From NCBI GenBank assembly GCA_021817225.1, contig JAKAVR010000020.1:1-32437 (forward strand): DNA of 32,437 bases, read 5' to 3'. A model generated the notes under the pieces. That model did no database searches. It saw only the letters and a program-made list of their open reading frames with translations, and was not told the DNA's origin. Shown here one piece after another: positions 6,346-22,005 of this stretch (position 1 is its first letter; each line of letters opens with the position of its first letter). The stretch comes from Thermoplasmata archaeon (GTDB lineage: Archaea; Thermoplasmatota; Thermoplasmata; Sysuiplasmatales; Sysuiplasmataceae). The position numbers were made by a program, and so were the translations under genes.

Positions 6346-7083
6346 ATGGGCAAACGAGAATCGCGGAATCTTCTCTACTCCGACCTTGCGGAGTACTACG
6401 ATGCCATCTACAACTGGAAAGACTATTCCTCAGAAGTGCATTTTATCAAGAAGCTTATCGCCTCAAGCAAGAAATCAGTCGGCAACGAGCTCCTAGACGT
6501 CGGCTGTGGAACAGGAAGGCATGTTGCACTCCTCGCGGACAGTTTCAAATGCACAGGGCTGGACCTGAGTGACGAGATGCTCCGTATCGCCAGAAGGAAT
6601 GTGAAGGGCGCGAAGTTCGTCAAGGGAAACATGTTTGGCTTCGAACTCCACAAGAAGTTTGACGTTATTCTATGTCTTTTCAGCGCCATTGCCTATGCTA
6701 AGACGGACGAGCAGTTGAAGGGAACACTGTCCTCATTTTCAAGCCACCTCAGGGATGGAGGGATGGTCATAATTCAGCCGTGGATTCAGAAGTCGAAGTG
6801 GAAGAAGGGGCACATAGCAATGGAGACATTTGATTCAGGGAACGTCAAGATAGCAAGGGCATCATACAGTGGAGGCACCCCCAGGCTCTCAACCTTCAGG
6901 ATGGAATACATTATCGCCGAGAAGGGCAAAGGGATAAGGCATGTGGTGGAGGAAGACGCATTCCCCTACTTCCAACGTGCGAAATATGAAAGGATAATGA
7001 GGAAACTTGGGCTGCGACCCAGGTTTGTCACCAACAAGCTCTTTGGCGACAGGGGCCTCCTCGTAGGGATCAAGGATTCATAG
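6346..7083 (+). CDS. class I SAM-dependent methyltransferase
   Basis: YDAIYNWKDY...LLDVGCGTGRHVALLADSFKCTGLDLSDEMLRIARRN; TATA-like atattatag about 29 nt upstream of ATG. Confidence 0.88.
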   Translation: MGKRESRNLLYSDLAEYYDAIYNWKDYSSEVHFIKKLIASSKKSVGNELLDVGCGTGRHVALLADSFKCTGLDLSDEMLRIARRNVKGAKFVKGNMFGFELHKKFDVILCLFSAIAYAKTDEQLKGTLSSFSSHLRDGGMVIIQPWIQKSKWKKGHIAMETFDSGNVKIARASYSGGTPRLSTFRMEYIIAEKGKGIRHVVEEDAFPYFQRAKYERIMRKLGLRPRFVTNKLFGDRGLLVGIKDS

Positions 7084-7177
7084 AACATGGACTGTTCACC
7101 GGTAACAGCAAGGTTGAGTTTCCTCTTGTCTGAGATGCAGATGCTTTGGCGATGGAATGAGATGAAGCTCGGAACTG

Positions 7178-7185
7178 TTTTTAAA
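7178..7185 (+). promoter_or_regulatory. TATA box consistent with a leaderless transcript
   Basis: tttttaaa centred about 25 nt upstream of ATG 7206. Confidence 0.5.
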
Positions 7186-7205
7186 CTAGAAGCAAATCAG
7201 ACATC

Positions 7206-7655
7206 ATGGTCTCCGATAGGAAGACGGTGATTGTGCTGGGACTTCTTGTCCTGGTGGAATACACGCTGGGAGCGCTTGTCACATTCAGCGATCCATTGGA
7301 TGCAGGTTTCAGTTTGTCCTCCTTCCCGACGACATATCCTGCCTATCTTCCACTCGTCCACAGGCTTTTCTCCATAGTGCTCATAGCAGCATGGATAGTC
7401 CTTCCGGTGTCGCTGAAGGGCTCAAGGGCTTTTGTGTTGTCGCACATCACCCTCGGGCTGATAGTGTTACAGGCAATCATCGGAATATTCATTCCCTATA
7501 CACAGGGAAACCCGGTCAACAACTACATCGTGATAGTCCATTTCTCTGTCAGCGGGCTTATCATCGCTGCTGCGGGGTTCACAGTGGTGCTTGCTTGGCT
7601 TGCCGACCGTCCCGATGGAAGGCAAACAGTGCGTAAGCCGTCAGTAGAGAACTGA
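7206..7655 (+). CDS. half-size CtaA/COX15-like four-TM membrane protein
   Basis: Four hydrophobic segments; LVHRLFSIVLI, LQAIIGIFIPYTQGNPVN, IVHFSVSG motifs, paralogous to the convergent gene. Confidence 0.65.
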   Translation: MVSDRKTVIVLGLLVLVEYTLGALVTFSDPLDAGFSLSSFPTTYPAYLPLVHRLFSIVLIAAWIVLPVSLKGSRAFVLSHITLGLIVLQAIIGIFIPYTQGNPVNNYIVIVHFSVSGLIIAAAGFTVVLAWLADRPDGRQTVRKPSVEN

Positions 7656-8046
7656 CAAGCATAAGAACACCGGCGTTTCCTTCATGCAATATGACATTTA
7701 CAGGATGATCCTGGCTGTAAATCGTGATGCCCCCGAGCACGGCCTGCAGGAGGAGCAGGACAAAGGCAGCAATAGAGAGCCACAGGAGGTTCATACCCTC
7801 TCGTCCGCCTGCATGGTTGAGAACGAGCTTCAGCAGGACCACAACTAAGTTGATTATGAACACCACAATCAGAACGATCGCCCATAATCTGTGAATCTCC
7901 TCCAGCACTCCAGGCCAAGTGAATACTATTGTTGAGTATGGGAAATCGTTGTAGCCGGGGTCGAGGAATACAACCATCGAGGCTATAACAAACTCAATCC
8001 AGGTTACGACCGTTACCAGAATGGCCGTCAGTTTGTAAGATTCCAT
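7579..8046 (-). CDS. half-size CtaA/COX15-like four-TM membrane protein
   Basis: MESYKLTAILV start (ORF extends to 8073); EIHRLWAIVLIVV, LLQAVLGGITIYSQDHPVN, ILHEGNAG motifs. Confidence 0.68.
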   Translation of the reverse strand: MESYKLTAILVTVVTWIEFVIASMVVFLDPGYNDFPYSTIVFTWPGVLEEIHRLWAIVLIVVFIINLVVVLLKLVLNHAGGREGMNLLWLSIAAFVLLLLQAVLGGITIYSQDHPVNVILHEGNAGVLMLVSSLLTAYALFAFHRDGRQAKQAPL

Positions 8047-8135
8047 CCGAGTCGTTACGAACAGCCACCTCATCTATTTTACCGTTGCTGCCGACACGTA
8101 GAAAGATGCAGCCCCGATCTGGCGGGGAGTTCACA

Positions 8136-9299
8136 CTATGTCCTGCTGCCTATGAATTTCTCAAGTTCATCCAGACCGTGGCCGATGTCTTCAAGATTCC
8201 CGGAAAAAGATATTCTCAGGTGCTTCTCCCCTTCCGTACCAAAGGCAATGCCCGGCAGGACGGCGACGTGATGACTCTCTAGGAATTGTGCACAGAACTC
8301 CTTCGATTTCATATCAATGTCATATGAGGGGAAGGCGTAGAAAGCGCCGTCGATGTTTCCCGTATGCATACCATCTATCTGATTCAGCCGCTTCTGCACG
8401 AAGTCCCTCTTTGTTCTGAACTCCTCCCTGAACCTCTGTATGTGGCCGTCGCAGTGATTAAGCGCATATTCGGATGCCAGTTGTATGAACGGGGGTGAGC
8501 AGGTGTATGTGTGTTCGACGAGCCTGACCATATCCCTGAGAACTTCATGCGAAGCAACTACATACCCAGCCCTCCACCCTGTCATTGAATAGCTCTTCGA
8601 AAGTGAAAAGAGGGACACAACGGTATCGGGCTCTTTTTCAAGGCTGCCTGCAGAGATATGCTCTTTTTCGTAGACAAGATCTTCGTATGCCTCGTCGCTG
8701 ACAAGCCTTGCCCCGTTCGACGCACATTCGCCATAGATCTCCTCCAATTCTCTTCTGTCGAGAACCTTTCCGGTGGGATTGCATGGATCGTTCAGAACGA
8801 CGGCCGCAGTCCTGGAACTCATGGCCGATTTGAGTTTCTTCAGATCGGGGGTGAAACCATCAACTGTCCCGTAGTATCTCACCTTGAGCCCTGCAAGGAG
8901 GGCAGGCTCGGTATAGAAAAAGCCAGGGTTGGGGAGCAGTATTTCATTCCTGCCGCTGCCAGCCACAGCCATGAATGCCGCATATATCGCCATCTTGGTT
9001 GTCATGAATGCGCAGCTGTCGGCCGCACACTCGATCCTGTTCTTCCGTCTGACCTTGGCTGCTATTGCCTCCCTGACGGATGGAATGCCGGATGCAGAAG
9101 TGTAATGTGTCTTTCCATCCTTCATGCCGCTGTAGGCAGCATCGACGATATCGGCCGGTGTGTCGTATGTGGGCTCCCCCACTGCGAGTGAGATTATTCT
9201 CTCCCCTCGTTCCATCTTCTTCAGCACAAGGTTGATTGAATCGAATGCACCCGAGTCATGCAAATCAGAGAGCCGCGTAGCTGCCACCTGGTTCCACAA
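8136..9299 (-). CDS. class I/II PLP-dependent aminotransferase
   Basis: ISLAVGEPTYDTPADIVDAAYSGM...NPCNPTGKVL...SDEAYEDLVY...SLSKSYSMTGWRAGYVVA. Confidence 0.93.
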   Translation of the reverse strand: MWNQVAATRLSDLHDSGAFDSINLVLKKMERGERIISLAVGEPTYDTPADIVDAAYSGMKDGKTHYTSASGIPSVREAIAAKVRRKNRIECAADSCAFMTTKMAIYAAFMAVAGSGRNEILLPNPGFFYTEPALLAGLKVRYYGTVDGFTPDLKKLKSAMSSRTAAVVLNDPCNPTGKVLDRRELEEIYGECASNGARLVSDEAYEDLVYEKEHISAGSLEKEPDTVVSLFSLSKSYSMTGWRAGYVVASHEVLRDMVRLVEHTYTCSPPFIQLASEYALNHCDGHIQRFREEFRTKRDFVQKRLNQIDGMHTGNIDGAFYAFPSYDIDMKSKEFCAQFLESHHVAVLPGIAFGTEGEKHLRISFSGNLEDIGHGLDELEKFIGSRT

Positions 9300-9379
9300 T
9301 GTCCGGGCGCTTCAATATGTTTCTCATACTGACGGACTTGGATGGAGATGGTCAACATGGAGCACAAGGCATCTTGTGG

Positions 9380-9772
9380 TCAATTGAGGTTTCGGCCGAG
9401 CAGTCCCCTGATGGTTTCTGTGAGCAGAATCAGCTCTTTTGTCGGATTGTCTCCCCTGCTCATGTACGCAATGTTGCTCAGCTTCAGGACTTCGTCCCTC
9501 AGCTTTTCGTTGTATGCATCGGATAGCATGACGACCGGTATATCGTGTCCCTCAATCCTGAGCTTCCTGAGATATTCGATACACGCATTGTCCCCTTTCC
9601 TGCAGCCATAGATAACAACGTCAATCTGGCCATCTGATATCATAGCCATTCCCTCCTTCAGCGTACTTGCAACCTCAACCTGCATGTCTGCAGTCATCTC
9701 CAGCAGCAGCTTTAACGGTTCAAGAGGGGTTGCCTGCTCGTCGACATAGAGCACCTTCAGGGCAGAATTCAT
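9380..9772 (-). CDS. degenerate response-regulator receiver-like protein
   Basis: MNSALKVLYVDEQATPLEPLKLLLEM...DVVIYGCRKGDNACIEYLRKLRIEGHDIPVVMLSDAY; expected phospho-Asp position reads YG; start chosen at the internal Met before LKVLYVDE. Confidence 0.65.
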   Translation of the reverse strand: MNSALKVLYVDEQATPLEPLKLLLEMTADMQVEVASTLKEGMAMISDGQIDVVIYGCRKGDNACIEYLRKLRIEGHDIPVVMLSDAYNEKLRDEVLKLSNIAYMSRGDNPTKELILLTETIRGLLGRNLN

Positions 9773-13730: not shown

Positions 13731-15140
13731 TTAAACAAATCCCTTTTCCGTGAGCTTGAAAACCATGTTCTCCGACACATGGCTGCTTCCCACCAGGTAG
13801 GCCACCGTGGCGACTGCTATTCCCACCACGACAAGCGCGCCTACAAGGGAAACGACGGAGACGATTGCCATCATCGAGAGGAAGAGAATTGGTCCCAGAG
13901 AAAGCATCTGCTTCAGGTTCTGCTGGCCGGTCATTATCTCTGAATCAACAATCTGGTTTACCGATAGCCTGGAGCTGAAGTAGATGGTCACCACAGGCGA
14001 CAGCGGAACTGTTATTCCCATGAATATGAGCGCGTTCAGCGCGCTTTTGAAGCCGAAGAACATGAGCACCATATCCGAAACGATGAAAGGCGCCATGATC
14101 ACATAAGTCTGCATGATCTTGGAGATTGCAAGACTCCTCCAGTAGACCTTGATGGGCATGGAAATGAATGCAAGCCAGGCCCTCTCATGCGAAAGCACCT
14201 CCTGGGCGAAGAGGATGGAGGAGAAGATCCCAATGTACAGTGAACCGAGGAGGAGCGTAATGTTGATGGGCCCGACGTTGCCTTCCCTGAATGCGAGGTA
14301 GAGGTAGATGAAGGCAAGGAATGGCGCCGGGATGAGAAGGTAGTAGAGCCTTATCCTCGATATCCTGACGCTCACGCTTCCGCCTATGCCAAACCTGCCA
14401 GTCAGGCTGAGCTCCGAAAGGTGGTGCGCGTATATTGCCTCCACGGGCGACTTGCCCGCGAAGCTCTCCGGTTTCCTGAACTCTGTACCGGAACGCCTGG
14501 AAGTGGTTTTGAGGAAGCCGATCTCAATGTCTCTGAGCTGCCTTACCGCGTATATGTTGAACGGTATGTTCAGGGCTATCACTATGAAAGTCCCGGCAGT
14601 CATGTTGCCCGTGAAGACGGATGTGAACGAGTAGTTGAAACCGAGAATAGGCAGGATCGCCCATACACCAAGAATTGTCGCGAGCAGCGCCTTCTGCCTC
14701 GTTTCAAGCTTGAATGAGATTATGCTGAGCGATGTCACAAGCAGTGCCAGCAGCGCTATGTTTCCTGCCATGATGCCTTTCTGCAAAAGGCCGCCCGAGA
14801 CATAGGGAAGGACATATCCGACAGCAAACAGGAAGGATATCCCGGTTGCCATGAACTGCATCAGGTAAAGGCTGACGACGAGCTCCCTCCTGTTCAGCGG
14901 GAGAGTGAAGAGGTAGTCCAGGTCCGACTTCATCAGGGCCACTCCGCCTAGAAAAACCATGAAAACAGTAAGGAAGATCAGTATTCCCACAAGGTAGTAG
15001 TTGAAGAACGAGTTCGTTGTCTCAACGCTGCTGTAGAGTGTTCCGAGAATCACCGAGTATGCAAGGAATATGAATATGAATGCTACAAGCGGTTTTGAAA
15101 AACGTGTGACTATCAGGAATTTGACAAGCTTACCCAACAC
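13731..15140 (-). CDS. ABC-2-like multi-TM permease
   Basis: Many TM helices; KSDLDYLFTLPLNRRELVVSLYL; overlaps the upstream ATPase gene by 11 nt. Confidence 0.8.
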   Translation of the reverse strand: MLGKLVKFLIVTRFSKPLVAFIFIFLAYSVILGTLYSSVETTNSFFNYYLVGILIFLTVFMVFLGGVALMKSDLDYLFTLPLNRRELVVSLYLMQFMATGISFLFAVGYVLPYVSGGLLQKGIMAGNIALLALLVTSLSIISFKLETRQKALLATILGVWAILPILGFNYSFTSVFTGNMTAGTFIVIALNIPFNIYAVRQLRDIEIGFLKTTSRRSGTEFRKPESFAGKSPVEAIYAHHLSELSLTGRFGIGGSVSVRISRIRLYYLLIPAPFLAFIYLYLAFREGNVGPINITLLLGSLYIGIFSSILFAQEVLSHERAWLAFISMPIKVYWRSLAISKIMQTYVIMAPFIVSDMVLMFFGFKSALNALIFMGITVPLSPVVTIYFSSRLSVNQIVDSEIMTGQQNLKQMLSLGPILFLSMMAIVSVVSLVGALVVVGIAVATVAYLVGSSHVSENMVFKLTEKGFV

Positions 15141-15921
15141 CCGTCATCAGCCTCACAACCACATTTTCGATCGACTCTGTCGGGTGGGCCTGTGCCTGGA
15201 GTTCGGCCATGCTGCCGCTCCAGACATTCTTCCCCCTTGAGATGACAATTGCGCCGTCAGTCAGCCTCTCGGCTATTGACATTATGTGTGTAGAGACAAG
15301 CACCGTCGCGTTGAGCCTCTCAAGCATTCCGACCACTTTTTCCTGGGTGGGTATGTCAAGGTAGTTAAGCGGCTCGTCAAGAAGTATCACCCTGGGCTGG
15401 TGTATTATTGCAAGAGCAACAGCAAGCTTCTGCCTGTTTCCCCTTGACAGCTTGCCCACCTTGGACTTTTCATATTCCGAGAGGGAAAGTTCACCCAGGA
15501 GGCCGGAAACCCTTTCCTCAAGGTTATCCACTCCGCGCAGGGCGCCCACATACTCAAGGTTCTCCCTGACGCTAAGTGTTGCGTAGGGCGACGCGTCCTC
15601 GGGAAGATACCCTATCAGCCGCTTTGCATCCATCGAAGTCGGGTCGTGGCCCATGATCGTTATCTGCCCCGAATCCGGCTTGAGAAGCCCTACGAGAAGT
15701 TTCAGCGTCGTGCTCTTTCCAGCCCCGTTGGGCCCTATGAGCGCGTACTTCTCGCCCTGGGGAATATCGATGCTCAGGCCATCGAGCGCCACGGTGCTGC
15801 CGTACACCTTTCTTATGTTGTTCAGATAAATGCAGCTTCTGCTGCTGTCCGCGTGACTTTCCTGAGTCTCCAACACGCGTTTATTATCAACCAACTGTGC
15901 CTTATTAGTTGTGGTAGCCAT
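15130..15921 (-). CDS. ABC transporter ATP-binding protein
   Basis: ALIGPNGAGKSTTLKLLVGLL, LSRGNRQKLAVALAI, VILLDEPLNYLD; start chosen at MATTTNKAQ, ORF extends to 16092 inside the helicase gene. Confidence 0.9.
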   Translation of the reverse strand: MATTTNKAQLVDNKRVLETQESHADSSRSCIYLNNIRKVYGSTVALDGLSIDIPQGEKYALIGPNGAGKSTTLKLLVGLLKPDSGQITIMGHDPTSMDAKRLIGYLPEDASPYATLSVRENLEYVGALRGVDNLEERVSGLLGELSLSEYEKSKVGKLSRGNRQKLAVALAIIHQPRVILLDEPLNYLDIPTQEKVVGMLERLNATVLVSTHIMSIAERLTDGAIVISRGKNVWSGSMAELQAQAHPTESIENVVVRLMTGVG

Positions 15922-18900
15922 TGTTCCTGTTGTCAGCCTGTTTCCTGTATGCGTAACCGCAGGATTGCGTCCATGCACACCCGGAGCAGTTCTCCGGCGA
16001 AGGAATTGCGCCATTGCTCCCTTCGGCAATCCCGTCGAGAGTCGCCTCGGCCTTCTTTCCGAACGATTCGAGTTCGCCGGGACTGATGACAAACTCCCTC
16101 GTCTCTGCAGGATTGTCGAGTGCGAATGTCACAAGCCTGAATACGGGAGGCGAGTGGAGATGCTTCAGCGCCAGGGCATAGAGCATCAGCTGATTGCGAT
16201 ACTCCGGTCCCTTTGCCCTGATGTCTCCCGTCTTGTAGTCCACGACAAGAAACTCTTCCGGTGCCTGGACAAACAGGTCGATTTTTCCCGAGAGTCTGTG
16301 CCTGCCCACCGCCAGTCCGAAATTTGTCTCCCTCCTGAGCTTCCCGCTGCGGGAAGCGTCTCTTGCAGCGCGGCCGTAGTCAGAATTGACGAACCTGCCT
16401 GCTGTCTGCACCGCGTCCGCGACCCCGGCGTGCAGAGCGTCGGCGTTCAATGGCATGCTGTCCCTGCTGTAATCGTATGCCTCGAGCAGAGTATGCACGG
16501 CCGTTCCTCTTTCGGCGGCTGCATTCTCCTCATCGCCTGTGGTATGGAAGGCGCCCTCCGACATGGTTCTCCTGTAAGGGCAAACGAGATACTCCGCGAC
16601 AGCAGTGGCTCTTGCAGTCAGGGCGTGCTTTGCCTGAGGTTCCCTGTATAAGCTAAAGGAAAGCGGCCATTGCGCTTTCTTCTTTCCAGGAGCCACCGGC
16701 CCCACAGTGGCGCCCTTCCGTATGTATACGATCCTGCAGCCGCTCTGCAGTTCCACGACTTCCCTTCCTGCAAATGCGGGCACCACTTCGCCGAGGAGTC
16801 CGTTCCAGCTTCTGCTCTCCCTGTTTCCCATATCGAAAAGTGAGGCACAGAGTATCTCCTTTGCCCTTGTCAGGGACACATAGAAAATCCTCCTCTCCTC
16901 GTGTTCCTTCTGGCTTCTCCTTCTGCCAGAGGCGGCCCTGTTTATTCTTTCAATTCCCTCACCGATGCCTGGGGCCGATCGCCGGGGCACGCCTGGTATT
17001 ATTCCTGCCTCGTCATGGTAGAACGTCTCTGCTCTCTCCGGCTGTGCCGTCCTGGAGCTGTCTGCTACAAATACGACAGGGAACTCGAGGCCCTTGCTTG
17101 CATGAACAGTCATTATTCTGAGTGCGTCGCTCTTCTCGTCGTTCATCGGGTACTCCGCTTCACCCCTGCCGTCCTCAGACCTTGCCTCCAGCCTTCTGGC
17201 AGCCTCCCTTATCCCGATAGGGCCATCGCTTTCCATCCCCCTTACAATATCGACGAGCTTCAGTATGTTGGCGTAAGCCTGCTTTCCCTCCCCCGAGGCA
17301 AGGTAGACAAGGTCGAGCCTTGTCCTTTCAATGATATCCCTTAGCACGATATGGGCGAAATTGTTCCTGTTGTGTGAGTATTCTTCGTCAATGGTCTGGA
17401 AAAGCTGCAGCTTCTTCCTGTCATCTCCGGTGGCGGTGCCTAATGTTTTCGTCATTTCATACCTGTTGGCCGAGAGTGACAGGAGAATGTCATCGCTGCA
17501 GCCGTAGATGGGAGACCTGAGTGTCGCAAACGTGTAGTAACTGTCTTCGGGCCTGGCGAGATGGTAAATGTAATTGAGCAGATCCATCACCTCCTTCTTT
17601 TCGAAGAAGGAATCACTCTGGACGTGTATGTACGGTATTCCCTGCTCCCTCAGTACACTCTCATAAGTCCAGATCGGTGCCCTTGACCTGAAAAGCACCG
17701 CAATGTCCCTCAGGCATATCTTCCTGTATGCTCCGGCCTCGTCGTCGAACACCTCTGTTCCTGTGTCAATCAGCCTCCTTACCTCGCTGCAAATGAGTTC
17801 GGCTTCATTCTCCCTTCTCTGTCCGGCGCCCTCTCCCCCGGGAAGGAGGATCCTGACAGAGGGCTCTGCCCCTTCCCTGAGTTCTCTGTTTGCGCACCTC
17901 ATCGGCGCGTACTCCACATTCCCTTTTCCAAAAACGTCGGGGAAAATAAGGTTGAAGAAGGAAACTAGTCCTGGAGCGCTCCTGAAATTGTCATTCATTC
18001 CGAGCACATGCCCCTCGTTGAGCCTCAGGATATCCTGCTCGACCTCTTCCATTATGGACGGATCGGCATTTCTCCACTCATATATTGACTGCTTCGGGTC
18101 TCCCACAAATGCGCGTTTTCCATCCCGTGAGATCATTGATATTATGCTGTACTGCAGCCTGTCGGTGTCCTGGAACTCATCCACCATTATGTAATCGAAT
18201 TTCTCCCTGTAGTGGTTACAGATATCCGGGTTTTCCCTCAGCAACTGGTATGTGTAGTAGAGGACATCATCGAACGTGAGCAGCCCCTTTTCCTTCTTTC
18301 TCCTCTCCAGATCATCCCAGAAATGCAAGAGGTACCTCCCAAGGACACCAGCCGTGCGTTTCATGAATTCTATCAGGTCGCCCGAATTCGAAAGCCGTCC
18401 GTCGCCGGCAGAAGCAGCCGCCGTGGAGAATGCAGTGAGCGACTCAACCCCTCTGGAAAGCAGTTGCTCCAGGTCTTTACGCATGACACCCCGCAGCCTG
18501 AGGGATGAGTATATCCTGAGAAGCGACGACGCAAGGCAATTCTGCCCGAAGTTGGCATAACCGTAATTAGAAATGAACTCGCGCAGTTCCCCGTCTGACT
18601 GCAGGTGCGCAGAGACAATTCCTTCAATAGACTCCATCGACTCGGTCAGCATGCTGTTCTCGTCTGCAATCTCGTATGACGGATTGATTGAAAGCTCAAG
18701 AAGGTGCGAAGCAAGTATGGTGTTGCAGAACGAATGTATTGTCGATACACTGTCTGTGAGCAGCGCCCTGACGTCATTTCCAGACCTTCTGAACAGTGAT
18801 TTTCTGAGATTGTAGGCGGCCTCGTTTGTGAATGTAATTGCAAGTATCCTGTCAAAGGGGTTAGCTGTGCTCTTCATGGAGTTGAGCAGCAGCACATACG

Positions 18901-19027
18901 CCTCCACAAGCGTCCGTGTCTTTCCGCTGCCCGCACCCGCCCTTGCGACCACATCCCCGCTCCCAAGGATTGCTTTCACCACCTCAGACTGCTCTTCGGT
19001 CAGGGTGAGTCCCGCATCGGGTCTCAT
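15905..19027 (-). CDS. UvrD/RecB-type helicase with C-terminal PD-(D/E)XK nuclease (AddA/AdnB-like)
   Basis: ARAGAGSGKTRTL, ITFTNEAA, DYIMVDEFQDTDRLQ, FVGDPKQSIYEWRNAD, MTVHASKGLEFPVVFV, RRIFYVSLTRAKE; nuclease GKIDLFVQ...FLVVDYKTGDIR...QLMLYA; cysteines EYLVCPYRR...CSGCAWTQSC; start MRPDAG in ATGA overlap with upstream gene. Confidence 0.92.
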   Translation of the reverse strand: MRPDAGLTLTEEQSEVVKAILGSGDVVARAGAGSGKTRTLVEAYVLLLNSMKSTANPFDRILAITFTNEAAYNLRKSLFRRSGNDVRALLTDSVSTIHSFCNTILASHLLELSINPSYEIADENSMLTESMESIEGIVSAHLQSDGELREFISNYGYANFGQNCLASSLLRIYSSLRLRGVMRKDLEQLLSRGVESLTAFSTAAASAGDGRLSNSGDLIEFMKRTAGVLGRYLLHFWDDLERRKKEKGLLTFDDVLYYTYQLLRENPDICNHYREKFDYIMVDEFQDTDRLQYSIISMISRDGKRAFVGDPKQSIYEWRNADPSIMEEVEQDILRLNEGHVLGMNDNFRSAPGLVSFFNLIFPDVFGKGNVEYAPMRCANRELREGAEPSVRILLPGGEGAGQRRENEAELICSEVRRLIDTGTEVFDDEAGAYRKICLRDIAVLFRSRAPIWTYESVLREQGIPYIHVQSDSFFEKKEVMDLLNYIYHLARPEDSYYTFATLRSPIYGCSDDILLSLSANRYEMTKTLGTATGDDRKKLQLFQTIDEEYSHNRNNFAHIVLRDIIERTRLDLVYLASGEGKQAYANILKLVDIVRGMESDGPIGIREAARRLEARSEDGRGEAEYPMNDEKSDALRIMTVHASKGLEFPVVFVADSSRTAQPERAETFYHDEAGIIPGVPRRSAPGIGEGIERINRAASGRRRSQKEHEERRIFYVSLTRAKEILCASLFDMGNRESRSWNGLLGEVVPAFAGREVVELQSGCRIVYIRKGATVGPVAPGKKKAQWPLSFSLYREPQAKHALTARATAVAEYLVCPYRRTMSEGAFHTTGDEENAAAERGTAVHTLLEAYDYSRDSMPLNADALHAGVADAVQTAGRFVNSDYGRAARDASRSGKLRRETNFGLAVGRHRLSGKIDLFVQAPEEFLVVDYKTGDIRAKGPEYRNQLMLYALALKHLHSPPVFRLVTFALDNPAETREFVISPGELESFGKKAEATLDGIAEGSNGAIPSPENCSGCAWTQSCGYAYRKQADNRNNGYHN

Positions 19028-22005
19028 TTCAGCTGCCCTCCGTACCTGCATACAGTGAAATACCCGCAGTGCGCGCATTCGCCCTCCATGGGTGTAACGG
19101 GGAAGTTCCCTGCACTGATGTTGTCTGCAACAGCTGTGATTTCGCTCCTGTAGCGTGACAGCTCAGCTGCAAACTGCTCCTCGCCAAGTATGGAGAAGTA
19201 CGCCCTCCTCCTTTCCTGGATGGGAAACAGCCTGCCCATGGAATCCCTTTTCACGATTCCCGCCTTGTCCGGAGTACCCTCTGACTTCAGCAGCATGTAG
19301 TAGAATGCACCTGCGAGTCTTGCCCCTTCTACTTCATCCAGATATACAGCGTAAAGCGGTATTCCGAAATCAATAAGCTTGTTGCCCGCCCTGAAATATC
19401 TCTTTGTAAGCCCGTCCGGCCTTCCCGACTTGTAGTCGTATACAATCATCTCGCCAGACTTGCTGTCCACCGTCTCCACTCTGTCAATCACTCCCCTGAA
19501 CCTGTGCTGTCCGAGGGAGAACGCCTTCTGACCGTTGTATCCAAACCTCTTCTCCAGCCCCTTTATCTCACCACCCATCCTTGATTCGGCATCCACCTCC
19601 CCATCGACAAAAGCCGAAAGAGATGCCTTCACCTCCTCCACATGCACAGTGAAAAGCAGGTTCCTGTTATCACGCCTGCCATAGAGTTCGTCAAAGTATC
19701 TGTCTGCAAAATCTTCTATTGCCTTCCTCGCCTTCTCCTTCCCCCCCGTTCTGATGAAGTCGAGCCCGTGTTTCTCATAGAACCGGTGCAGTATTTCGTG
19801 CATCTGCGACCCCCTGTCCATGGGGTTCAGGGGCGGAAGCGTCTGATTTGCGTTTACGATTCTGGTTGCAACATATCTGAAGGGACACTTTGAGTATTCG
19901 CTGAGGTCAGTCGCCGAGAGAATCCTGTCCTTGACCAGCTCCCTGATTTTCTCCTGTTTGAATCCCCATTCCAGCGGATCTGTGTCTGCAATACGCTTCC
20001 TCTCAAGTATGCCACCGATATCGGTTATGAATTCAGCCGGTGCATTCTTCAGTACTTCGGACTCGTCAGCTCCCGACGAGGAAAGCGCGGCTCGAATCCT
20101 TTCAGTTTCACGTGCATTCCAGACCACACCTTCCTCCGGGTAGAATGATGAGAATTCCAGGCTTTTACTCTCTATACTTTCAATCAGATCCTCCCTGCCC
20201 ACGTTTTTTTCCATCAACTGAAGTACAAATGTGGAAGGAAGGATCCGCCTTCCCTGCTCATCACTGTATACATAGGAGAAAGTTACAATATCGGACGAGG
20301 CAACAACACTTTCGAATGCATGACCCTCAATCGAGTTCCTGGCTTCCGTTGAGGAACGGAGGGAAACGCCGTTTCTGGAGATTGCATCGATGGCAGACTG
20401 CCTCAGGAAGACGCCATCCCTGACCCTGTCTGGAAAGACATCCTCGTTCATGCCAATCATGAACACATGTCTGAATTTCCTGAAATAGAGGAGGCCCGCA
20501 TCTGTGAAGAGAATGCTGTCACTCCCTGCCTGAACGGTCTTGAAATAGCTGTTGTCCACGTAGCTTTCAAGCATCTCGCTGAACTGTGCAAGAGTGATTT
20601 TGCCGTCAGTAAACGCCATCTCCCCCGCTTTGGAGAGCGAACTGAGTTCGCGGAGACCGTCTGTCAGCGCCGAGCTGCCGGTATATTCCTCACCTGTCAG
20701 AAGAGCCGTGGAGGCTGCACGCAGTATCTCCTTCGCAAACACGACCCAACAGTCTATTGCCATGCGCCCCGATGCTTTCTTCCTGAGCGCCTGAAACCAC
20801 CCGGAAAAGGGAACGCCACCCACCGGTCCGATCGGGTCGAATGCCTCAAGGTTTCCGCCGTTTGGAAGATTCTCGGGTAGATGCGCTGCAGATTCCTCAA
20901 CTTCCCCGAGCCTGTCTCCGGAAGAAGCGAAAAAGTCGTGTTCAAGCAGTCGCATCACCTTGCTCTTCGTGACAGGACCATTGAGAAGATCCAGAACACA
21001 TGCCAGAAAGGAGTAGTGCCTGATGCTGCCGAGCTTCTTCCTTCCCTCCCCGTCAACACGCAACCCGTACTCGCCGAATATGGCAATGGCCTCCTCCCTG
21101 TACTCCTCCGCAGATCTCGCCACCACCGCAAAGTCTGACTGGCCGAGACCACGGCCCGACAGCTCAGCAACTATTCTTCTGGCCACCTCCCTCAACTCCC
21201 TTCTCATGTCGGGAGCACCGAAGATATCTCTGATCGCGGCACCGTGGCCGGCTGCTCGCCCCTCTGCTCCGCTGGTGACTCCCGGGATTGCGCGCATGAG
21301 ATCCTGGACGGAGCGCCAGCCTATGTCCGTATTTCTGAAAAATATGGCCACCTCGGCCACCGATGCGAGGTTCTTCAAGAGCTTTATGAGCACGCTGTCT
21401 GCAAATACAAGTCCTGCCACCACAATTCGCCTTACTCCCGTATGGAGCAAGCACTCCGCATTTTTTGATGCGTCGTGAACGAGGAGGTACCTGTCGTAAA
21501 ATCCGTTCTCTGCAAGCTGGTTCATCCTCCCCCGGTACGCGCGGCTGAACTCCGAAAGGATCGATGTTCTGGCATTCTCCATACTGCTTCCATCGGAACC
21601 TTTTCTCAGCAATTCTTCGGCCGATCCCTCCGAACTGATGATGTTTGGCCATAGGGGCCTGAATTCCTTGAGGAGCGCATCCGCGAAGCCGCCAATGCTC
21701 TTGCTTCCTTCGCGGAAATCGAGTTCATCAACAATTTCCCTGGCGATGAGCTGAATAAGCTGGTCGGGAAGTACTACGGGCTTGACCCCTCTTGCCTCCA
21801 GCACAATCCTTGAGGAAAGCTCATCGAAGGTCATGAAAAGGGATGAATCAACAAACCCGTCCCTCTCCAGCAGGTAATCAGTCATTTCCCTGACGGCAAA
21901 CGAATCGGGAAGGACACACAGGGTTTCACCCCTGCTGCTGCCTGAATATTCATCGACCATTGACTGCAGCGGATCACCGAATGAAAAATGGACACCAGCA
22001 CCCAT
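19024..22005 (-). CDS. AddB-like helicase-fold protein with C-terminal PD-(D/E)XK nuclease and Fe-S-type cysteines
   Basis: FRHVFMIGMNEDVFPDRVRDG; SEYSKCPFRYVATRIV...RGSQMHEILHRFYEKHG; FRGVIDRVE...MIVYDYKSGRPDG; GECAHCGYFTVCRYGG. Confidence 0.85.
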   Translation of the reverse strand: MGAGVHFSFGDPLQSMVDEYSGSSRGETLCVLPDSFAVREMTDYLLERDGFVDSSLFMTFDELSSRIVLEARGVKPVVLPDQLIQLIAREIVDELDFREGSKSIGGFADALLKEFRPLWPNIISSEGSAEELLRKGSDGSSMENARTSILSEFSRAYRGRMNQLAENGFYDRYLLVHDASKNAECLLHTGVRRIVVAGLVFADSVLIKLLKNLASVAEVAIFFRNTDIGWRSVQDLMRAIPGVTSGAEGRAAGHGAAIRDIFGAPDMRRELREVARRIVAELSGRGLGQSDFAVVARSAEEYREEAIAIFGEYGLRVDGEGRKKLGSIRHYSFLACVLDLLNGPVTKSKVMRLLEHDFFASSGDRLGEVEESAAHLPENLPNGGNLEAFDPIGPVGGVPFSGWFQALRKKASGRMAIDCWVVFAKEILRAASTALLTGEEYTGSSALTDGLRELSSLSKAGEMAFTDGKITLAQFSEMLESYVDNSYFKTVQAGSDSILFTDAGLLYFRKFRHVFMIGMNEDVFPDRVRDGVFLRQSAIDAISRNGVSLRSSTEARNSIEGHAFESVVASSDIVTFSYVYSDEQGRRILPSTFVLQLMEKNVGREDLIESIESKSLEFSSFYPEEGVVWNARETERIRAALSSSGADESEVLKNAPAEFITDIGGILERKRIADTDPLEWGFKQEKIRELVKDRILSATDLSEYSKCPFRYVATRIVNANQTLPPLNPMDRGSQMHEILHRFYEKHGLDFIRTGGKEKARKAIEDFADRYFDELYGRRDNRNLLFTVHVEEVKASLSAFVDGEVDAESRMGGEIKGLEKRFGYNGQKAFSLGQHRFRGVIDRVETVDSKSGEMIVYDYKSGRPDGLTKRYFRAGNKLIDFGIPLYAVYLDEVEGARLAGAFYYMLLKSEGTPDKAGIVKRDSMGRLFPIQERRRAYFSILGEEQFAAELSRYRSEITAVADNISAGNFPVTPMEGECAHCGYFTVCRYGGQLK

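Follow-up and report, generated by a model that had tools for sequence, protein, structure and literature searches.

A divergent AddAB-class helicase-nuclease as a probable replacement of archaeal end resection in the Candidatus Sysuiplasma family

Results

The addB-addA locus

The window analysed here is an entire 32-kb contig (32,437 nucleotides) from a draft genome (MAG) of a Thermoplasmata archaeon, 95% complete and with a contamination estimate of 1.6%. Relatives include Ca. Sysuiplasma superficiale and further Thermoplasmata MAGs, and the Ca. Sysuiplasma source archaeon comes from an acid-mine-drainage habitat. Below, f1 stands for the Ca. Sysuiplasma family and other f numbers for other families. 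The two open reading frames that the initial annotation had reported at 15905-22005 were both found, at 19024-22005(-) and 15905-19078(-), and carry the following features:

19024-22005, minus strand: addB-like gene, 993 aa; helicase-fold N-terminal part without Walker A and C-terminal Fe-S PD-(D/E)XK nuclease
19045-19920, minus strand: AddB nuclease/iron-staple module, residues 696-987; Pfam PDDEXK_1, 1.5e-31
19024-19027, minus strand: addB/addA stop/start overlap, ATGA, read from the sequence
15905-19027, minus strand: addA-like gene; SF1A UvrD/RecB-type motor and C-terminal Fe-S PD-(D/E)XK nuclease
18917-18940, minus strand: AddA Walker A, AGAGSGKT, residues 47-54; AGSGKT invariant in the Ca. 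Sysuiplasma family
18167-18181, minus strand: AddA helicase motif II, DEFQD, residues 300-304; invariant in the Ca. Sysuiplasma family
15959-16609, minus strand: AddA nuclease/iron-staple module, residues 824-1040; Pfam PDDEXK_1, 2e-22

The addA frame opens at 19078 (1057 aa), and the true start of AddA is probably Met18, at 19027. Since addB and addA share the ATGA overlap, we consider them one operon. Motif II of AddA aligns with DEYQD of B. subtilis AddA. At the other end of addA, a mechanically called frame for an ABC ATPase (window 15130-16092(-)) overlaps the gene; as its relatives have 248-250 aa, translation probably begins much further downstream.

Both proteins had been said to end in a PD-(D/E)XK core within a C...CxxCx5C cysteine set, and this is what we observe. 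The catalytic H/D/D/K residues are H862, D934, D947 and K949 in AddA, whose nuclease module also has Q963, and H736, D841, D857 and K859 in AddB. The cysteines are C833...C1031-x2-C1034-x5-C1040 and C707...C977-x2-C980-x5-C986, respectively. All eight cysteines and the catalytic residues of both proteins are invariant among 6-7 family members (28-51% identity to the window proteins), and C707, H736, D841, K859, C977, C980 and C986 are invariant across 29 archaeal and bacterial AddBs. Judged from these alignments, the invariance of nuclease residues and cysteines is far above chance, and each module is predicted to bear a four-cysteine Fe-S (iron-staple) set. A nuclease of this four-cysteine "iron-staple" kind was originally reported from AddB (PMC7430649). 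AddAs with four cysteines also occur in some Firmicutes (Selenomonadales and Alicyclobacillaceae) and in Thermoplasmata family f21; an archaeal invention of the two-Fe-S AddAB was thus rejected, given the AddAs of these two bacterial groups.

Assignment to the AddAB class

Pfam recognises UvrD motor domains and PDDEXK_1 in AddA and only PDDEXK_1 in AddB. The top NCBIfam models are TIGR02785 for AddA (2e-88) and TIGR02773 for AddB (3e-28), the equivalog cut-offs being missed by far (297.5 against 707.65 bits and 97.9 against 903.7 bits). Since these models were made for Gram-positive proteins, the missed cut-offs reflect how the threshold was curated rather than any feature of the structure. 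The profiles thus place both proteins with AddAB, as homologues below the equivalog level.

Structural comparisons point the same way. The AddA profile matches 3u44_A with 350 bits (2.8e-103), followed by UvrD (218 bits), RecB (176 bits) and AdnB (117 bits), and the only significant PDB match of the AddB profile is 3u44_B (3.6e-29). With only 7 sequences, AlphaFold2 gave a poor model of AddB (pLDDT 57), and one from an alignment of 29 sequences (pLDDT 81.5) was used instead. Foldseek aligns this model along its length with 3u4q_B (1.2e-36), and with RecC and AdnA at about 3e-22. Neither a Walker A nor a UvrD/SF1 Pfam match was found in AddB.

AddA therefore has a complete SF1A motor with a C-terminal PD-(D/E)XK nuclease, AddB has an SF1-helicase fold with no active motor and a C-terminal nuclease, and the two genes stand side by side across the Ca. 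Sysuiplasma family. The profiles, the PDB and fold matches and the missing Walker A of AddB together give the AddAB plan of one motor and two nucleases. We conclude that the pair encodes a machine of the AddAB class, and does so in a genome that is truly archaeal. The initial annotation had left the choice between AddAB and AdnAB open; profiles and fold comparison settle it for AddAB, rather than AdnAB or RecBC, AddB being devoid of helicase motifs.

Conservation in the family

AddB is present in 8/8 f1 genomes and AddA in seven of them, the contig of the remaining one stopping inside addB. Wherever contigs permit a view, addA adjoins addB. The neighbours of addAB are common to f1 relatives, some being more than 90% identical, and the window also carries the genes for aIF2-alpha and diphthamide synthase, which are archaeal/eukaryotic markers. 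The GC and GC3 of addAB lie within the range of the remaining contig. Since synteny is conserved among relatives, the pair is neither a chimera nor a recent import.

Other end-resection genes

Archaeal end resection had been ascribed in the initial annotation to HerA-NurA with Mre11-Rad50. Searches of the eight f1 draft genomes (69-97% complete) detected neither NurA, nor a NurA-linked HerA, nor a canonical hook-bearing Mre11-Rad50. NurA was found in 0/8 f1 genomes by the same search that found it in 18/41 genomes. The sole full-length HerA in the window's genome belongs with a solo HerA found throughout the class, to whose members it is orthologous and mostly 42-58% identical; its identity to the NurA-linked HerAs, of which it is no orthologue, is 23-29%. 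Most f1 genomes have a full-length solo HerA. The best Rad50-profile matches in f1 are SMC-like proteins of about 1200 aa or a hookless ATPase. The latter is, in the window's genome, an 898-aa protein with GENEAGKS and no zinc-hook CxxC, encoded next to the only Mre11-like gene. This hookless pair has orthologues in G015 (f9) and G022 (f3), both of which also have Rad50, and in G015 it stands alongside a canonical Mre11-Rad50. We thus regard it as an additional system and not as the missing Mre11-Rad50. RadA was found in 8/8 f1 genomes.

The hookless pair (a Mre11-like phosphoesterase and a GxNEAGKS ATPase of about 900 aa; L201:4664-8481, L253:935-4734, L254:2682-6520) is conserved in f1 as well as in genomes from two further families, and it resembles YhaO/YhaN.

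AddAB in Thermoplasmatota and haloarchaea

About a dozen families of Thermoplasmatota have AddAB-type pairs. Those of f6 and f7 escaped a search of the phylum that used the AddB profile alone, and were the reason for building a second profile (A3). Among 390 Thermoplasmatota genomes, about 60 have an AddB-type B subunit and 73 have NurA. Both occur together in 2/390 genomes against 11.2 expected (P 2e-4 by genome; P 0.006-0.03 at family level, shared ancestry being handled only in part). AddAB-type pairs and NurA thus nearly exclude each other in these 390 genomes. Some families have neither, so NurA may be absent for other reasons or may have been missed by the Pfam model.

Canonical Rad50 was unseen in AddAB-bearing f1, f2 and f35, in most tested f6 genomes and in G401 (f9), but it is kept in the AddAB-bearing families f7, f20, f21, f22, f26, f43 and f47. 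Therefore AddAB does not force the loss of the archaeal set, and the idea that its presence strictly predicts the loss of Rad50 was discarded; it may permit the loss of the archaeal resection set. Within f9, G401 has AddAB and no Rad50 match at 1e-12, whereas G015, G026 and G036 have Rad50 and no AddAB.

An AddB-AddA-like pair of a second and highly divergent type (about 855-905 and 920-995 aa) is found in many f6 genomes and in f7, at L050:9449-12115 and 6553-9468, L044 and L048 in f6 and at L046, L049 and L051 in f7. The tested f6/f7 B subunits have no NCBIfam match and, where tested, only Pfam PDDEXK_1. Three f6 genomes first examined were without NurA. Some f6 AddB-like genes (G318:C27, G363:C30, G349:C25) are intact except for TAG or TGA codons in frame, which could reflect readthrough or sequencing error. 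Adjacent AddB- and AddA-like genes are also present on haloarchaeal plasmids, at L241:4432-11477 (Haloferax lucentense pSVX82-3) and L242:4411-11480 (Salinirubellus salinus plasmid), and are annotated there merely as PD-(D/E)XK nuclease and UvrD-helicase proteins.

Evolutionary history

Both trees, of AddA and of AddB, recover a branch of f1 with f21 (SH-aLRT 96-99 for AddA and 95 for AddB) outside every sampled bacterial clade. A further group comprises f20, f22 and f35, joined by f2 in the AddA tree. Separate positions are taken by the haloarchaeal plasmid pairs in both trees and by f6/f7 in the AddA tree. In these quick tree searches with thin bacterial sampling, none of these groups lies inside a sampled bacterial clade. 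The AU test did not reject a single clade uniting f1 and f21 with the Thermoplasmatota AddAs of bacterial-like type (p 0.195). The trees favour an old archaeal branch over a recent import. Thus, of the two origins suggested at first, the under-described archaeal branch, which has the f1 synteny on its side as well, fits better than a horizontal acquisition of recent date. A RecBCD/AddAB-class machine had been called unusual in archaea; such machines are not as rare as supposed, given the pairs in other Thermoplasmatota lineages and on haloarchaeal plasmids.

Discussion

We propose, with a probability of about 75%, that the two genes encode a heterodimeric helicase-nuclease driven by ATP, a divergent AddAB of archaea that probably carries out end resection in the Ca. 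Sysuiplasma family. Bacterial AddAB attaches to a double-strand end, where AddA draws in the 3'-ended strand; the two nucleases cut the separated strands, and a 3' tail is left for the recombinase. Every expected motor residue and the residues of both nucleases are present in the archaeal proteins. By analogy, AddA and AddB would form a heterodimer in which the SF1A motor of AddA would pull the 3'-ended strand, unwinding from the double-strand end. The other strand would be held by AddB as a helicase-fold scaffold that has no Walker A, and the predicted Fe-S staple would keep the AddB nuclease together. The two nuclease modules may then each cut one of the strands, leaving a 3' tail that could be passed to RadA. 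Since NurA, NurA-linked HerA and canonical Mre11-Rad50 are undetectable in the family, AddAB probably does the resection there, and we think that it probably replaces Mre11-Rad50 and HerA-NurA in this task.

Alternatively, AddAB could be an extra helicase-nuclease, resection being left to the solo HerA with an unrecognised nuclease and to the hookless Mre11-like/ATPase pair. The f1 genomes do keep the hookless pair, most of them keep a full-length solo HerA, and many AddAB-bearing families keep Rad50. However, G015 has the hookless pair beside a canonical Mre11-Rad50, an orthologue of the pair is found in Rad50-bearing G022, and the solo HerA is class-wide, so neither is specific to genomes lacking Mre11-Rad50 and HerA-NurA. 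We therefore consider this explanation rather unlikely.

That the pair serves defence or a mobile element, as a helicase-nuclease destroying DNA that enters the cell, seems more doubtful still. Bacterial AddAB and RecBCD also destroy phage DNA, and AddAB pairs are found on haloarchaeal plasmids. However, in f1 the pair is present in every genome with conserved flanks, near the aIF2-alpha and diphthamide synthase genes, and PADLOC gives only generic UvrD and Cas4-like similarities. We find it very hard to believe in an AdnAB-type complex with two motors: two nuclease modules are what AdnAB has, but the B subunit shows no Walker A or SF1 Pfam match, and PDB and fold matches prefer AddB to AdnA/AdnB. 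Finally, bacterial contamination or a chimeric contig, which the MAG origin and the 1.6% estimate might suggest, is ruled out in practice by synteny in independent genomes, since seven relatives have the genes, the neighbours are syntenic and archaeal, and the GC and GC3 of addAB match the rest of the contig; the archaeal context assumed from the beginning is thus secure.

Returning to a resection AddAB, a wider proposal can be made, to which we give even odds: a bacterial-type AddAB displaced Mre11-Rad50/HerA-NurA in Ca. Sysuiplasmatales and, independently, in further families of Thermoplasmata's phylum, Thermoplasmatota, and it feeds RadA instead of RecA, possibly with its own Chi-like signal.

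We found no paper on archaeal AddAB in the open-access literature, and novelty is claimed within this literature, subscription papers lying outside it. Reviews of archaeal repair make no mention of AddAB in archaea (PMC7690668, PMC7776575, PMC4471258). Among these three, one states that Mre11-Rad50 is universally conserved and that archaeal resection steps are unclear, and the Haloferax review reports that H. volcanii has neither HerA nor NurA; resection without HerA-NurA may therefore occur in other archaea too. In the Ca. Sysuiplasma family, the Mre11-Rad50/HerA-NurA set is undetectable and AddAB is conserved. This AddAB allows a direct test of whether a bacterial-style resection motor can feed RadA, and it bears on whether archaeal end resection was swapped out more than once.

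Comparison with known systems

B. subtilis-type AddAB (RexAB) is the best PDB match of both window proteins. It shares with them the gene pair, the single SF1A motor in AddA, the helicase-fold AddB, one PD-(D/E)XK nuclease per subunit and the Fe-S staple in AddB. The window pair differs in its archaeal host with RadA, its smaller subunits, the four cysteines also present in AddA and the lack of a Walker A in AddB. Mycobacterial AdnAB is likewise heterodimeric and has one nuclease per subunit, but the B subunit of the window pair has no motor motifs, and the sequence and fold match is weaker. RecBCD has in common the SF1A motor and the PD-(D/E)XK nuclease, and the AddB fold also matches RecC; in contrast, the second subunit of the window pair has a full nuclease and RecC has none. 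A RecBCD identity was rejected on the full nuclease motifs of the B subunit and on the neighbours scanned around the pair, none of which is RecD-like.

Among archaeal systems, the UvrD-Cas4 fusion of mesophilic archaea joins an SF1 helicase to an Fe-S nuclease (PMC5704561). This fusion is a single gene with no AddB, whereas the window has two genes. A protein of UvrD-Cas4 type was seen in family f4 (L043). The archaeal HerA-NurA and Mre11-Rad50 resemble the window AddAB in the task proposed, which is to supply RadA with 3' tails, but the motor and nuclease of the window AddAB are unrelated to theirs. In summary, the window AddAB belongs to a known class, as a divergent representative in an unexpected role, the probable replacement of archaeal end resection.
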